Below, piece by piece: positions 103-9,868 of a DNA stretch of 11,973 bases. The notes under the pieces are model-generated. The model saw only the letters and a list, made by a program, of their open reading frames with translations. It did no database searches and was not told the origin of the DNA. How positions within the stretch are numbered: the first letter of the stretch is position 1; the number at the start of each line of letters is the position of its first letter. Source of the stretch: Marinilabiliales bacterium (lineage in GTDB: Bacteria; Bacteroidota; Bacteroidia; Bacteroidales; BM523). Location: assembly GCA_002869425.1 (NCBI GenBank), contig PKSZ01000195.1, forward strand, positions 1-11,973. The letters are read 5' to 3'. Made by a program: the position numbers and the translations under genes.

Positions 103-188
103 AGACATTAATAAAAGCCATAGTAATCTGTGTTGTTGTATTTGCAATATTGCTGTTTTTTGATCTCAAGGCAGGAGGTAAAATATGA
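99..188 (+). CDS. Tiny 29-residue single-pass membrane peptide
   Basis: ATG at 99 overlaps the previous stop, and its own TGA at 186-188 overlaps the ATG of the RadC-like gene at 185, so both junctions are ATGA. The peptide is a short basic N-terminus (MKTLIKA), a hydrophobic helix of about 17 residues and a short polar tail. The strong Shine-Dalgarno of the next gene lies inside its 3' end. It could be only a leader that couples translation, or a small holin-like or membrane-partner peptide. The double overlap and membrane-helix composition favour a real gene; the function is unknown. Confidence 0.5.
   Translation: MKTLIKAIVICVVVFAILLFFDLKAGGKI
173..178 (+). promoter_or_regulatory. Strong Shine-Dalgarno site of the RadC-like gene
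   Basis: AGGAGG lies exactly 6 nt before the ATG at 185. Such strong sites are uncommon in Bacteroidota, and this one fixes the start so that the N-terminal membrane helix belongs to the protein. Confidence 0.7.
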
Positions 189-736
189 AAAGAGCCATTA
201 ATATCATATTGATTGTGCTTGCCATTGCTGCAGGAGTAATTATTATCAGGAAGAGAAAAAAAAAGCAAGTGGAAGGCTTGGGGAAAGCTGTTAATGAAGG
301 AAGGCCTCCTAAGGTTCGCATTGTTTACAGCAGGAAGCAAGATCCGAAATTGATGAAGAAAATAACCAATTCACAGGATGCTTATGGGATTTTAACAGAG
401 ATATGGAGCAAGCAGATTGATGCCCGTGAAGAAATGATTGTGCTGCTACTGGATCGGTCAAACAAAGTTCTCGGATACGATGTGCTGAGTATGGGAGGTA
501 TTACCGGAACTGTAGCAGATCTACGTTTACTCTTTTCCGTTGCCTTAAATTCATTAGCCGTAGGATTTATTTTATGCCACAATCATCCATCAGCCAATCT
601 GAATCCCAGCCAAAGCGATATAAGCTTGACAAAAAAAATTAAAGAAGCAGGCTTAGTGATGGAAATTAGTCTGTTGGATCATCTGATAATAAGCAAAAAC
701 GGTTACTATTCATTTGCAGACGAAGGAACCCTTTAA
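185..736 (+). CDS. RadC-family JAB (MPN+) domain protein with N-terminal membrane anchor
   Basis: The protein has 183 residues. Residues 4-21 form a hydrophobic helix followed by a basic cluster (IRKRKKKQ), which suggests a membrane anchor with the rest in the cytoplasm. Residues 60-180 form a RadC/JAB domain: acidic E82/E83 before a beta strand, the metal motif H132-N-H134-P-S with D145, and the terminal LLDHLIIS...GYYSFADEG signature. The helix-hairpin-helix part of full-length RadC is absent, as in the short RadC copies on Bacteroidota mobile elements. RadC's biochemical role is unsettled; the name comes from an early repair assignment, and JAB folds include isopeptidases and possible nucleases. 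The gene follows two tiny membrane peptides with ATGA coupling and precedes the spanin-like gene by 11 nt. The membrane anchor is the unusual part. Confidence 0.88.
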   Translation: MKRAINIILIVLAIAAGVIIIRKRKKKQVEGLGKAVNEGRPPKVRIVYSRKQDPKLMKKITNSQDAYGILTEIWSKQIDAREEMIVLLLDRSNKVLGYDVLSMGGITGTVADLRLLFSVALNSLAVGFILCHNHPSANLNPSQSDISLTKKIKEAGLVMEISLLDHLIISKNGYYSFADEGTL

Positions 737-747
737 ACAAAGCAGAT

Positions 748-1194
748 ATGCGTATAATAAAAACCTTTAGTTTAATATTGTTCTCCATTTTTATTTTATC
801 AGGATGCTCTGCAGAAAGAAGGTTACACAGGTTAATTGCACTTCATCCGGAATTGGTAAAAAACGACACAATTCACATCCAGGACACTGCCTTTATCCCG
901 GAAACAAAAGTTGATACAATCGTCCATTATAGTACCCTCCGTGATACCATCACCATAACCAAAGAAAAGCTCCATGTAAAAATCCATCAGGTTAGGGACA
1001 CTGTTTACATCGCAGCCCATCAGGATCCCGACACCATCATCATCACCAAAGAAATCCCCGTTGAAAAAGTCATCCACATACAGCCGGAAAGCATAACCGA
1101 TAAGATTTGGGGGACATTTAAGTATAATTTTTTGTTGTCTATTTTATGTGTTGTGGTTCTGATTGCTTTTATTTTCGGCAGAACTCGTAGATAA
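748..1194 (+). CDS. Lipoprotein with C-terminal membrane helix, u-spanin-like
   Basis: The 148-residue protein opens with a lipoprotein signal (MRIIKTFSLILFSIFI, then lipobox L17-S-G-C20), so Cys20 should be lipidated. The middle (about 40-115) is made of alternating hydrophobic/polar strands carrying a repeated Asp-Thr-Ile/Val motif at residues 40, 56, 66, 84 and 95 (D46-T47 is a partial copy). Residues 127-143 form a hydrophobic helix followed by a basic tail (GRTRR). A lipid anchor at one end and a membrane helix at the other is the topology of phage unimolecular spanins, which span the periplasm and fuse inner and outer membranes at lysis. DT-rich lipoproteins of this size also seem to occur in Bacteroidota phages and elements (from memory). 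The lipoprotein call is solid; the spanin role is an inference. Confidence 0.72.
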   Translation: MRIIKTFSLILFSIFILSGCSAERRLHRLIALHPELVKNDTIHIQDTAFIPETKVDTIVHYSTLRDTITITKEKLHVKIHQVRDTVYIAAHQDPDTIIITKEIPVEKVIHIQPESITDKIWGTFKYNFLLSILCVVVLIAFIFGRTRR

Positions 1195-5617: not shown

Positions 5618-5676
5618 TCAATATTAGTAATTAGAAAAATTTAGAGTGTTATTAATTTAAAACTCACTAATATTGA
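5618..5676. repeat. 11-bp inverted repeat between convergent genes
   Basis: TCAATATTAGT (5618-5628) and its perfect reverse complement (5666-5676) enclose 37 bases. It lies between the NTPase stop and the end of the minus-strand cysteine-motif copy, overlapping the latter. On the minus strand the second arm is followed by T-rich sequence, so it may act as a weak AT-rich terminator. The low GC makes this uncertain. Confidence 0.4.
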
Positions 5677-5922
5677 TAATCTTATTAGTAGTTTTACACT
5701 TAGTCAAAATTTCCATCCTCGTTAGAGGCTCATATCTCAACTTCATAGCATAGGTCAGGTTATTCGAGCACCTGGGAGAACAGGCATGCGAATTTGATTT
5801 GAAATTCTCATAAGGAGATTCACACAACCAACAAATATACAGGTGCCGGTCCTTCCGATAGGTTTCGTCATATTTCCCTCCAAGGCTGTTTATATGTATT
5901 GGTTTGATAATACCTCTTTCAC
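5657..5922 (-). pseudogene. Degenerate tandem copy of the Cys-motif gene
   Basis: This is a second copy of the neighbouring gene at 5890-6207. The shared part runs in one frame from LGG through C-W-x-C, SPYE, NS-x-A-C-S-x-R-C-S and the ending LTRMEILTK. All four putative zinc-ligand cysteines are kept. The ancestral start is recognisable: GTG at 5922 with AAGGAG 6 nt before it, followed by VKEVLSNQ, which matches the start of the intact copy. After that point about 52 nt (net) are missing relative to the intact copy, which shifts the frame, and the start frame stops at 5890 after 10 codons. The downstream frame is open back to an ATG at 6004, but that start lies inside the other gene, has no good ribosome site and its first 33 or so residues do not match the paralogue. 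A shortened protein from 6004 cannot be excluded. Confidence 0.65.
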
Positions 5923-6207
5923 ATTCTTCTCCTTCGTTAAAACATCCATTCTGGCCGGCGGATTTAAGCCGGCTTTTCTTTGCCTGGTGATATTCTGGGA
6001 GCATCTTTTGCTACAGGCGAAAGAATTCATCTTATGGCTCTCATACGGGCTCCCACTGAACCAGCAAAGCTTCAGGTAAACAGTACGGTTAATTTCTTTG
6101 GTATGGGATCCTCCCAGGGTCTGGTTGTATTTCCGTTGCTGTTTGATCACCTTCACCCCGATGATGTTCTGTGCATAGAGCTCGTTGTTTGATAATACCT
6201 TTTTCAT
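5890..6207 (-). CDS. Small Cys-motif (zinc-finger-like) protein, intact copy
   Basis: I choose the ATG at 6207 (105 residues) because MKKVLSNN aligns with the recognisable start of the degenerate copy; an upstream ATG at 6264 would add 19 residues. The core (48-72) is C48-W-F-S51, SPYES, then C65-S-x-x-C69. This resembles a four-cysteine treble-clef or TRASH-like finger, but the second cysteine is Ser51, so metal binding may be weakened. The other copy has Cys there (CWLC). The rest is basic, with RQRKAG and NPPARMDVLTK, which fits nucleic-acid binding. The C-terminal residues VKEVLSNQYI are encoded by the relic start of the second copy, so the ending was acquired by the duplication. Family not recognised; upstream lies the 11-bp repeat array, a possible target. 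Confidence 0.55.
   Translation of the reverse strand: MKKVLSNNELYAQNIIGVKVIKQQRKYNQTLGGSHTKEINRTVYLKLCWFSGSPYESHKMNSFACSKRCSQNITRQRKAGLNPPARMDVLTKEKNVKEVLSNQYI
5929..5934 (-). promoter_or_regulatory. Relic Shine-Dalgarno of the degenerate copy
   Basis: Reads AAGGAG on the minus strand, 6 nt before the GTG at 5922. It marks the original start of the second copy and is now inside the 3' end of the intact gene. Confidence 0.5.
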
Positions 6208-6249
6208 ATCGTTTTTTCCGGAAAGATACAATGCCGGGCCCGGTGCGTT

Positions 6250-6307: not shown

Positions 6308-6365
6308 TTGAACTCCATGCAAACATTTCCCTGCTATCATTCCGGCTTAATTTCGGGTTCAATAC

Positions 6366-6453
6366 AACATCCATACAACTCCAATAAAACTCCACTCTCA
6401 GTTGATGATAACTCCACTAAAACTCCAAGTAAACTCCAACTGAACTTCATTTG
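6366..6453. repeat. Array of 11-bp iteron-like repeats
   Basis: Eight consecutive 11-bp units follow the pattern AACTCCANNNN. Units starting at 6377, 6388, 6410, 6421 and 6432 carry AACTCCA exactly; 6443 has AACTTCA, 6366 has AACATCCA, and 6399 is degenerate. A further AACTCCA at 6311 is in the same register, 66 bp before 6377. The period is not a multiple of three, so this is not coding repetition. It is close to one helical turn, so all copies face the same side of DNA. Such arrays serve as protein-loading sites, for example replication iterons or the 11-bp iterons of plasmid R1 parC. No partner is visible nearby except the Cys-motif gene. Confidence 0.8.
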
Positions 6454-6604
6454 ACAAAGCTGAAAGTCAGGTTTTATCCGCTATTACAGTTGTATTTTTA
6501 TTGAAGATTTTTTATAATATAAATTTATAGGCAAGTCACCGCATTACCCACCTTACCTGTTTTATGAGTATTTACGCTATTTTGAGGGGATTGGGCTTGT
6601 GTGT

Positions 6605-6737: not shown

Positions 6738-6759
6738 GGAAGAAAACTCAAAAGAGTTT
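6738..6759 (-). terminator. Candidate intrinsic terminator of the ardC-like gene
   Basis: On the minus strand, AAACTC-TTTT-GAGTTT is a 6-bp stem with a 4-nt loop (6744-6759), directly followed by a short T-rich run. It starts within the ardC-like stop codon. The stem is short and low in GC. Confidence 0.4.
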
Positions 6760-7696
6760 ATGCTATGGCAGCTTCAACTTCTGCGGTCTGTAAAATATAA
6801 TCGGCTGCTGCCTGTGCTTGGGAAGATGCCTGGACAACAAATTTCTTGTCGTTCTCCATCACAGAAAGCCAGTTATTGATATAATCCACATTGTCAGTGA
6901 TCCGGCTCTCATAACCCAAATAAGCCATGATATAGGCAGATGACAACTCACTTACAAGCTCCTCAAATCCGTACTCAGATGAAGCGTACCTGTTGTTTAA
7001 TGGGCGGTTCAATCGGCTCTCATGTCCTACGCTATGCGATAGCTCATGAAATAAGCAAGAATAGAATGCTTCCTTTGAAACGAATTGCTTCGGCAGGGGC
7101 ATATATATTCTATCCTTTGATGGGCTGTAATATGCCTCGTTTTGTGCCTCATAACTGATATTTATTCCGGTATTGTTCACAATCATATCAGCCAGTTCAT
7201 CCCTTTCAATTTCGCTGAGTTTATCCAGTTCCGGAATTTCATAAAATTCTTCCGGCAGTCCTTCCACACAATCCACCGAAAACACATTGTAATTTTTCAA
7301 ATATCCGACTCTTTTTACGTTCAGGTGTTCAATGCTTTGTCCTCTCTGTAAAAGGGCTTCAACGGTTCTGGTCAGGTTTGCCCCGGTCTCTTCATCAATA
7401 TACAGGGCAGATGTATAAACAACCATAGCGGCTTTACTGCCTTTCTTAATCCGGGCGTTGTATTTCTCAAGCTGTTTGAAAGTCAGCCAGCGGTTATACT
7501 TGTACTTCCGTTTGTGTTTTATGTAGCTTAACAAAAGCTGGTTTATACCGTTGTACGTGTGATCAGATACAATATTTCGGGCAAAAATATCACCCGACAA
7601 ACTGTACCATGACTGCGTAAAATTGCTTTGTTTGTGTTCCTCCAGCATTTCCATAATGGTGGCGGTTATCCTTTCGTAAATGGCGTTTGTATTCAT
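6758..7696 (-). CDS. ArdC-like antirestriction protein (N-terminal ssDNA-binding domain plus zincin-like domain)
   Basis: The protein has 312 residues, near the usual size for the family. The N-terminal part (about 5-140) shows the ArdC single-stranded-DNA-binding pattern: Y49-N-G-I-N near 50, R69-W-L-T-F-K-Q-L around 69-76, and K84-K-G near 85. The C-terminal part has the zinc-protease-like motif H217-E-L-S-H221, then GHESRLNR, with EELVSE at 245-250 offering the third ligand. ArdC of plasmid pSa binds ssDNA and protects incoming DNA from restriction; related proteins are common on conjugative and mobilisable elements. The start ATG overlaps the stop of the 53-residue gene (ATGA), so the two are probably translated together. 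The gene is more GC-rich than the flanking NTPase and protease genes and marks the transferable backbone. No key residue appears to be missing. Confidence 0.88.
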   Translation of the reverse strand: MNTNAIYERITATIMEMLEEHKQSNFTQSWYSLSGDIFARNIVSDHTYNGINQLLLSYIKHKRKYKYNRWLTFKQLEKYNARIKKGSKAAMVVYTSALYIDEETGANLTRTVEALLQRGQSIEHLNVKRVGYLKNYNVFSVDCVEGLPEEFYEIPELDKLSEIERDELADMIVNNTGINISYEAQNEAYYSPSKDRIYMPLPKQFVSKEAFYSCLFHELSHSVGHESRLNRPLNNRYASSEYGFEELVSELSSAYIMAYLGYESRITDNVDYINNWLSVMENDKKFVVQASSQAQAAADYILQTAEVEAAIA

Positions 7697-7902: not shown

Positions 7903-8400
7903 TTAAAATTCAATTTGCTGCTCAATCTCGCTGATTTTCTCAACCAGTGTGCTGTTGATGGCTTCAACCACCTTTGCAAAAACTTCCGAATTTGAGGTTT
8001 TAAAGGTGTTGCCATGTTCATCGGTCAGCACAATGTTTTCATTGAACTGATTGGTTCCCACTACAAACGAGGTCAGTTTTTTACGGCTTGCTTCCAGTTT
8101 CTCCCTCTTTTCGATCAGGGTTTTGAGGTTTTCAATTTTCTCAATCTTCTGTTCAAGGCTTAATTGTGGCTTGGGAGGTTCAACCGGCTTAACTGGTTCA
8201 ACGGTTTGAACTGGTTTTTCAGGGGTTTCAACTGGTTTAACTTCGGCTTTGCTCGGTGCAAGAACTTCCGGCTTTTCCTCTCCGTTGGGTTTAACCTTTT
8301 CTTTTCCTGCAAGCTGTTTTGTTGCACTTGTGGCGGTTCTGATGCTTGCTGCATCCTTACGGGTTGCTTTTCCGTTTTTCTTAGCTGTTAAAGTTTCCAT
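7903..8400 (-). CDS. Lys/Pro/Glu-rich disordered and coiled-coil protein
   Basis: The protein has 165 residues. Residues 1-50 are rich in Lys, Ala and Thr, and 50-78 are a low-complexity Pro-Glu-Val-Lys stretch (PVETPEKPVQTVEPVKPVEPP). A charged helix at 81-108 is likely coiled coil. The folded end (109-165) contains TSFVVGTNQFNENIVLTDEHG and ends in another helix, VEKISEIEQQIEF. There is no signal peptide or membrane segment. The distinctive FVVGTNQFNENIVL...TFKTSNSEVF section looks like a conserved Bacteroidota element protein, but I cannot name a family or function. The basic, flexible N-terminus would suit DNA binding, with the coiled coil giving dimers. It is transcribed towards the ardC operon and closed by the terminator at 7858-7896. 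Confidence 0.72.
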   Translation of the reverse strand: METLTAKKNGKATRKDAASIRTATSATKQLAGKEKVKPNGEEKPEVLAPSKAEVKPVETPEKPVQTVEPVKPVEPPKPQLSLEQKIEKIENLKTLIEKREKLEASRKKLTSFVVGTNQFNENIVLTDEHGNTFKTSNSEVFAKVVEAINSTLVEKISEIEQQIEF

Positions 8401-9040: not shown

Positions 9041-9868
9041 CTAAATTAGTGAATATGCCTTATTAATAAATGTTTTATCTGTTGAGGATAAAACTGTATT
9101 CCATGATACAGAGTAACCATTGGTAGTAAAATATGCAGGGATGGGGTATATCATAATTGAATCAGGGTCAAATCTCGAATTAGTAATATCTGAGTTGTAT
9201 TTATTAAATATATTATGTTGTACCATTTGAGGAGTCCATCGTTCAAGTGCACATGCACGAATCACAGCTGGTTTGTCCCACTGAATCCCTGAAGTAGGAG
9301 CTTGATGTTCATGAATGCATCCTAATGCATGCCCGAATTCATGCAAAACAGCTCTTTGTATTTTTATATCGGTTGCATTACCAACTCCAAGGTGCATAGA
9401 GGGTGTTTTACCTAAAGATTCAATTCCAATTAAAGAAGAGTTTACTCCATTAGCATTTATTTGAATTGTGATCTCCGCTGGTAATTTATTACTGAAATTG
9501 AACTTGATTCCGCAATGTGGAGTCCACATATTAGCAAAGGTTTTAATTTTCTCATTGAGAAGAGAACCAAACGCATGGGGGATAATAAAAACATCTAACT
9601 TGTCATATGATTTCCACATTTTTGTTTTAATAAGAGCAAGTTCCCATAATTTTTGTTTGTTTATGGGATTCATCATAAATAACCGAGTAAGGTCTTTATC
9701 ATTAATTGATGTTTTTATGACTTCATACATTTCTGGAGAAATAAATTCTGAACCAATAGTTGATTCATTTAATAGATCTAAATTCTTCAGACTTTTAAAA
9801 TCATGTGAACTTAATTCACTTATTAACTGTTCTTTTGTGTAATCAATAGAAAAACAGAAACCAGGCAT
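9041..9868 (-). CDS. Astacin-like (M12A-type) zinc metallopeptidase without signal peptide
   Basis: The protein has 275 residues. The extended zinc motif is H176-E177-F-G-H180-A-L-G-C-I-H186-E-H188 followed by QAP, the HExxHxxGxxHEH form of bacterial astacin relatives. The Met-turn is S237-I-M239-I-Y241, and the closing pattern WNTVLSSTDKTFINKAYS is typical of the family. Residues 1-80 precede the catalytic domain and contain no signal peptide, lipobox or membrane helix, so the enzyme should stay in the cytoplasm. This is odd, since astacins are usually secreted and activated by propeptide removal. The start codon is clear, and a tiny HTH gene lies 31 nt upstream, so the pair is probably one operon. 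The gene is AT-rich like the NTPase gene, suggesting acquired cargo. A toxin or defence effector role is possible but unproven. Confidence 0.87.
   Translation of the reverse strand: MPGFCFSIDYTKEQLISELSSHDFKSLKNLDLLNESTIGSEFISPEMYEVIKTSINDKDLTRLFMMNPINKQKLWELALIKTKMWKSYDKLDVFIIPHAFGSLLNEKIKTFANMWTPHCGIKFNFSNKLPAEITIQINANGVNSSLIGIESLGKTPSMHLGVGNATDIKIQRAVLHEFGHALGCIHEHQAPTSGIQWDKPAVIRACALERWTPQMVQHNIFNKYNSDITNSRFDPDSIMIYPIPAYFTTNGYSVSWNTVLSSTDKTFINKAYSLI

Follow-up and report, generated by a model that had tools for sequence, protein, structure and literature searches.

Phased 11-bp repeats accompany a small Cys-motif gene family in putative virus-like elements of Bacteroidales

A run of 11-bp direct repeats beside a small gene with a cysteine motif (hereafter the Cys gene) raises the question of whether the two belong together, and to what end. 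The locus lies in a stretch of 11,973 nucleotides (contig PKSZ01000195.1 of a Marinilabiliales bacterium), which we call the window; its source genome (G000) is available as a draft of 3.9 Mb, split into 751 contigs and 83% complete. Five units read exactly AACTCCA (at 6377, 6388, 6410, 6421 and 6432) and are spaced by exact multiples of 11 bp, as the initial annotation of this DNA had reported. The same annotation counted eight 11-bp units; its period held, and its count was overstated. Read in register, the unit at 6366 (AACATCCATAC) is degenerate, that at 6399 (CAGTTGATGAT) is a unit-long gap rather than a copy, and that at 6443 (AACTTCATTTG) is AACTTCA, a single change. Six units are thus good and fall into two blocks; the rest of the array is a degenerate unit and a gap of one unit length. 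The additional in-register copy that had been noted was found at 6311, 66 bp before the unit at 6377; its register is weak evidence, since one copy in 11 would fall there by chance.

AACTCCA occurs eight times in the window, and none of 200 shuffles reached that number. In the 350 bp that precede the Cys gene, lag 11 scored 35/55, the best other lag between 7 and 16 scored 28, and 0 of 500 dinucleotide shuffles attained 35. Because neither set of shuffles reached the observed values, we conclude that the array exceeds chance expectation. Tandem Repeats Finder listed its two blocks separately, with a period of 11. In the draft genome, two-unit matches with at most one mismatch were confined to this array, and three-unit matches with at most two mismatches were found here and at one other, chance-like place; no second array of the AACTCCA type was found in that draft. 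An RNA structure of the array was considered and set aside (fold z-score -0.63), and Rfam returned three matches between 5580 and 6800, all below threshold.

It had been predicted that the array would accompany the Cys gene in related elements. Thirteen Cys genes with an intact start and readable upstream DNA were available, namely that of the window and those at loci L132, L134-L140, L142, L170, L173 and L185 (we number loci L and genomes G). L142 was included even though its gene is cut short after about codon 71; genes lacking their start were excluded (the second copy in the window, two fragments in L133, G147 60035-60148, L141, L143 and L171). With 350 bp scored, or less in L139 and L142, and a threshold of at least 31/55 at lag 11, an array was detected upstream of 12 of the 13 genes. 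The prediction was therefore borne out, arrays being present beside the homologues and not missing from them. In the 12 positive loci the best stretch starts 106-254 bp before the ATG, and 0-6 of 500 shuffles reached the array score. Lag 11 was the sole best among lags 7-16 in 11 of the 13 loci and tied in two (L138, L140). The genomes behind L135 and L170 belong to a single genus and the two loci share sequence, so that independent positive loci number at most 11 of 12.

Among 309 genes of at least 100 aa in the fetched loci, 18 scored at least 31, and half of these are Cys genes; two of the nine other scorers (in L134 and L170) have the Cys intergenic region as their upstream DNA. The 311 kb of loci, mostly selected for Cys genes, contain eleven lag-11 peaks scoring 38/66 or more, eight of them directly upstream of a Cys-family gene, and the other lags from 7 to 16 gave 0-8 peaks each in the same DNA. 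L185 adds a further lag-11 peak of 52/66. Arrays are present at L173 and L185, which harbor distant, short Cys relatives and whose fetched DNA has no ArdC gene, P-rich gene or conserved motif, features described below. At seven distant zinc-ribbon loci (L186-L192) no array was found, the lag-11 maxima over each whole locus being 30-36/66.

The unit differs at nearly every Cys locus; the period and the position are constant. By eye, the unit core on the gene strand is TGGAGTT in the window, ATATGAA in L132, TCGAT in L135 and L170, TCATA in L136, TGGAATTAAT in L137, TTAC in L138, ATAAA in L139 and GTCATGC in L142, with TGAATGATT and TTTCAGATTAC at the distant loci L173 and L185; the cores of L134 and L140 are ill-defined. 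In 11 of the 13 loci the scored array segment is 9-12 unit lengths long, and the edges of the segments are degenerate. Four genomes (G000, G167, G147 and G053) hold two arrays and their units differ in 4/4, a count to be read with the weakness of the L134 array and the fact that unrelated pairs mostly differ anyway. AACTCCA itself was rejected as the conserved signal, since the units at other Cys loci read differently and arrays of AACTCCA occur elsewhere without the neighbors of this module.

The ATG at 6207 is the likely start of the Cys gene in the window, because 13 of 17 homologues begin at that position and a promoter -7 box lies just upstream; the other four homologues carry extensions. 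A search of 5.8 billion proteins gave a family of 18, the window's own protein included, with the motif CWxCG...ACSxRC. In the window protein CWFSG replaces CWxCG, and three of the four motif cysteines are kept; the serine at the second cysteine of the first CxxC is found in the window alone, the other 14 aligned rows having cysteine. AlphaFold2 predicts a helix, two long strands, a knuckle and a short strand, and two helices (mean pLDDT 80), a model with no evident likeness to a ribbon-helix-helix protein. Comparison with solved structures in the PDB, by sequence and by structure, gave no convincing match; no Pfam family was found, NCBIfam and PHROG matches were below threshold, and searches of plasmids, phages and viral contigs gave none. 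Genomes with matches to a protein or alignment query, the source genome included, numbered 10/295, 16/393 and 4/395 (class), and further sets of genomes were positive in 2/2, 2/3 and 3/10; part of these genome matches are distant zinc-ribbon proteins only.

The Bacteroidetes -7 box has the consensus TAnnTTTG. Twelve of the 13 Cys loci have a box with 5 or 6 of the 6 fixed letters between -31 and -21, where 1.8 were expected and 0 of 1000 shuffle rounds reached 12. Since chance alone often places a 5-of-6 box somewhere within 70 bp (8.8/13), the weight of this result is carried by the position and by six perfect boxes. The array ends 60-108 bp before the box in 8 of 13 loci and extends to the promoter in the short-Cys loci L173 and L185. 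Beyond the array, a spacer of 77-130 bp with 69-84% AT (66-70% for the loci) leads to a conserved motif, TAAGGYGGGTNATGC, which was found upstream of the array in 8 of the 13 loci with 0-3 mismatches. The available DNA of L134, L140, L142, L173 and L185 holds nothing better than 5 mismatches, L140 being partly masked and the L142 contig ending there. Scanning 393 genomes for the motif gave 15 places: all five with at most one mismatch are Cys loci, and so is the single one examined (in G147) of the ten with two mismatches. The reversed control pattern gave 6 matches in the same scan.

We tentatively favor, with close to an even chance of being right, a reading in which the Cys protein recognizes the array as a phased site that serves to maintain the element or to control its replication and that also acts on the promoter of the Cys gene. 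The array would be the cis-acting recognition site of an integrated temperate-virus-like element, and a small DNA-binding protein of the element, most likely the Cys-motif protein, would bind one unit per helical turn. That the site is read from one face of the helix is suggested by the 11-bp spacing, which is kept while the letters change. Bound copies could then assemble side by side on that face, and the complex may control the element, through positioning or copy control of its excised form or through the start of replication, while also regulating the Cys promoter. As the unit letters drift between elements with the phase kept, each element would acquire a specificity of its own, and two elements sharing a cell would not necessarily cross-react. 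The further proposal that this is an undescribed pair, a zinc-knuckle-like Cys family reading helically phased 11-bp arrays whose letters vary so as to keep co-resident elements distinct, in a one-protein system of segregation, copy control or immunity with changeable specificity, is in our judgment doubtful. No report of such a protein-array pair was found in the open-access literature searched by title and start of abstract, subscription journals falling mostly outside that scope.

Several observations weigh against the reading that we favor. Similarity between arrays tracks the identity of the Cys proteins weakly (r 0.29, with 363 of 5000 permutations as high, over 9 of the 13 loci, leaving out L140, L142, L173 and L185). 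L140 falls below the array threshold, with 24 of 500 shuffles reaching its score and its upstream DNA partly masked, and the AT enrichment of the spacer is modest. With 184 proteins the P-rich family is far larger than the Cys family (18), and P-rich genes that lack a Cys gene may be numerous. The strongest array of all (51/55; L174:8157-8290, unit TTTTTAGTCGT) has no Cys gene beside it. It belongs to a neighboring element of G053, where it is flanked by an integrase and by a Phd-PIN pair, Phd being assigned by Pfam and PIN by eye; a promoter box was also seen by eye before phd. The protein partner of the array is for this reason uncertain. At L174, either the array is an element-level site with a swappable neighbor or another small DNA-binding protein took over.

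G053 also encodes a Rep_1-like protein (below the Pfam cut-off, with an HUH-like motif by eye) and a single-stranded DNA-binding protein (SSB). Near L137:5089 the end of tRNA-Asp is repeated exactly over 13 nt, which fits, suggestively only, an element of about 14.5 kb that would hold both the Rep_1-like protein and the Cys-less array at L174:8157. These observations agree with replication iterons, that is, with an array forming the initiator-binding part of an origin read by a Rep protein, the Cys gene being a neighbor or a copy-number regulator. The conserved motif, AT-rich spacer and phased repeats resemble an origin layout, and RepB of pMV158 binds three 11-bp direct repeats 84 bp from the nick site. 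A known antitoxin that acts on origin iterons (PMC7848731) would fit the Phd gene beside the L174 array. We nevertheless regard iterons as rather unlikely: a relative of the G053 protein was found in one of 12 genomes searched, G053 itself, eight of the 12 hold an array, no other Rep family appeared among the selected neighbor proteins scanned, and the array accompanies the Cys gene in both short-Cys loci too. A plain operator, regulating the Cys gene or a lysis/lysogeny switch with no replication or partition role, would explain the promoter box between array and ATG, the arrays that reach the promoter in the two short-Cys loci and the Cys gene being convergent to the lysis-side genes; the distance from array to box in eight loci, and array lengths beyond the need of a simple repressor in 11, make it improbable.

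Two further readings were weighed. If the array were a signal of intrinsic curvature or supercoiling, its phase would bend the DNA and its letters would be irrelevant, in agreement with a kept period, changing letters and the T runs of the L174 units; by eye, however, many arrays, that of the window included, have no A-tract per unit, and the unit core is kept within each well-formed array, which leaves this explanation very improbable. Hardly credible, in our view, is a functionless repeat that arose by chance or as a minisatellite drifting by slippage. Units are alike within an array, as slippage predicts, and three-unit AACTCCA arrays exist in 58 other genome stretches and 11 stretches of viral contigs. 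Slippage would not, however, repeat 11 bp in the same place beside the same gene family with different letters, and none of the 69 fetched AACTCCA stretches contains a relative of the Cys, ArdC or P-rich proteins (E at most 0.01).

The carriers of the array look like integrated temperate-virus-like elements of Bacteroidales, a label we infer because genes for integrase, ArdC and endolysin-type proteins are spread among them. On the Cys/array side, tyrosine integrases were recognized with Pfam in L137, L173 and L185, and through their similarity to that of L137 in L138 (at tRNA-Ser) and L174 (at tRNA-Asp); a Cys remnant in L143 lies at a tmRNA gene, and the window has no integrase. The other side holds endolysin-type genes, a glucosaminidase in L132, an M15 peptidase with a holin in L174 and CHAP proteins in L173 and L185. 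No capsid gene was recognized, and no single locus has the full set of integrase, ArdC and endolysin-type genes. Integrase arm sites were thought an unlikely identity for the array, which is separated from the integrase by about 3 kb in L137 and L138 and by about 4 kb in L173; the distance is shorter elsewhere, below 1 kb in L185 and adjoining in L174.

Window features are collected in Table 1. In L136, L137, L138 and L140, ArdC and the P-rich gene precede a region that combines CACCCRRACC-like repeats with an inverted repeat, and L170 has ArdC; neither gene was found in the fetched stretches of L134, L142, L173 and L185. Alignment shows that this region is conserved in L135, L136, L137, L138 and L170; it is possibly an origin, a single-stranded DNA promoter or a terminator, and in the window it matched no Rfam family at threshold. 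One NCBI assembly has P-rich and Cys proteins tagged ABIJ97_18260 and ABIJ97_18280, each on an 11,402-bp contig. The P-rich protein had no match in viral contigs, and ArdC matched only distant proteins in phages, 56 of 56 records being below 60% identity.

Table 1. Coordinates of the array, the Cys gene and other features (window positions, except where locus numbers are given)
Feature	Position	Strand	Remarks
RadC-type JAB protein	185..736	+	L132 homologue comes after endolysin-type gene
Small lipoprotein-like protein	748..1194	+	Lipobox-like start, C-terminal hydrophobic segment; beside RadC
Avs2-like STAND protein (NACHT), 1406 aa	1369..5589	+	NCBIfam Avs2 E 2e-37, far below curated cut-off
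5'-truncated second Cys-gene copy	5660..5887	-	Homology begins near codon 49 of the long reading
Cys-motif gene, 105 aa	5890..6207	-	Start moved from 6264 to ATG at 6207
-7 box of Cys gene, TATCTTTC	6221..6228	-	5/6 fixed letters; at -21
Further single AACTCCA unit	6311..6321		Between array and promoter, in register
11-bp phased array	6366..6453		Core on Cys-gene strand TGGAGTT
Spacer, array to conserved motif	6454..6531		75% AT (window 67%)
Conserved 24-bp motif, TAAGGYGGGTNATGCNGNGANTTG	6532..6555	-	Within conserved stretch of about 50 bp
Long inverted repeat, CACCCRRACC-like repeats in loop	6645..6721		After ArdC stop; 231-nt fold z -2.8
ArdC-type anti-restriction protein (ArdcN + MPTase-PolyVal)	6758..7696	-	Precedes array in relatives
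P-rich 165-aa protein	7903..8400	-	Conserved ArdC neighbor in module
MAG59 AACTCCA stretches	L029, L037, L043, L047, L048, L052-L055, L060, L068, L069, L071		

The cargo next to the Cys gene differs, being Avs2-like in the window and Card1-like in L138; the Avs2-like gene is probably defense cargo lying between the lysis side and the Cys gene. The lipoprotein-like product beside RadC gave 0 family matches, and by eye we take it to be u-spanin-like. Beyond the P-rich gene the window has a gene for an astacin-like metallopeptidase (9041-9868), and a reverse transcriptase gene (RVT_1) was seen at L168:1488-3038 in the element region of G147. Truncation of the Cys gene at its 5' end was observed in the second copy of the window (5660-5887) and in L133, L134, L143 and L171, and one contig of G147 (C11) carries several truncated copies with cargo between them and varying breakpoints. 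Judged from these sequences, the truncated copies suggest repeated recombination at the Cys gene. An attachment site inside the gene was considered as their possible origin; the breakpoints vary between loci.

If the favored reading is true, the array and its protein would offer a handle on unstudied integrated virus-like elements of Bacteroidales, some of which carry defense genes as cargo. About a dozen natural protein-array pairs, with constant spacing and varying letters, would be at hand, well suited to a study of how DNA specificity shifts within a small family of proteins.

How does the array compare with known systems? Arrays of other Bacteroidales share the AACTCCA core and the period by their letters; they are unlike the window array in occurring in many copies per genome and, in the fetched stretches, without Cys, ArdC or P-rich relatives, and we take them to be a different thing. 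In G006 (CALCQV01; L003-L015), 13 three-unit AACTCCA places lie on 9 contigs; several of them are followed in register by the inverted array, TACTGGAGTTG, and inverted pairs are frequent. MAG59 (JABUUG01) has 13 stretches, mostly of AACTCCACTTT/ATT units.

Among plasmid systems, pMV158 shares the 11-bp period through its bind locus and RepB. As to an origin of its type, the loci here have direct repeats and an upstream inverted repeat, and no nick site was identified; no such initiator gene matched in the window, and the one Rep_1-like protein was seen in G053 alone among 12 genomes searched. The small antitoxin PrpA binds origin iterons and limits copy number (PMC7848731); it belongs to another antitoxin family than the Phd of L174, and its iterons are 6 bp. 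The parC site of R1 had been put forward as the nearest parallel. As an analogy it holds, since 11-bp direct repeats are bound there by the small adaptor ParR, and in ParMRC plasmids of C. perfringens compatibility is set by ParR-parC specificity (PMC9426499); phased direct repeats beside a gene are likewise present here, where a centromere role is putative. As the nearest parallel it gives way, because the StbA system of R388 is closer, the Cys model has no evident likeness to ribbon-helix-helix, and the ten window open reading frames scanned matched neither a ParM nor a ParR family, in line with the initial annotation; no actin-like ParM was found among a selection of the relatives' proteins either.

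We do not claim membership in the ParMRC, StbA or pMV158 families, because ParM, StbB/StbC and a shared Rep were not found. Neither StbB/StbC nor an adjacent oriT was found here, and the Cys protein and other window reading frames scanned gave no Pfam or NCBIfam match to StbA, StbB or StbC, a direct comparison with StbA not being part of that scan. StbA and its stbDRs are the closest working analogue. In R388 the stbDRs are 9-bp repeats with 2-bp spacing (PMC3098194), which form two groups of five about the promoter of the operon that encodes StbA, and StbA exerts its effect on stability through them, the ATPase StbB being dispensable. The likeness lies in repeats of 11-bp period near the promoter of the accompanying gene, seen here in 12 of the 13 loci, mostly further upstream.
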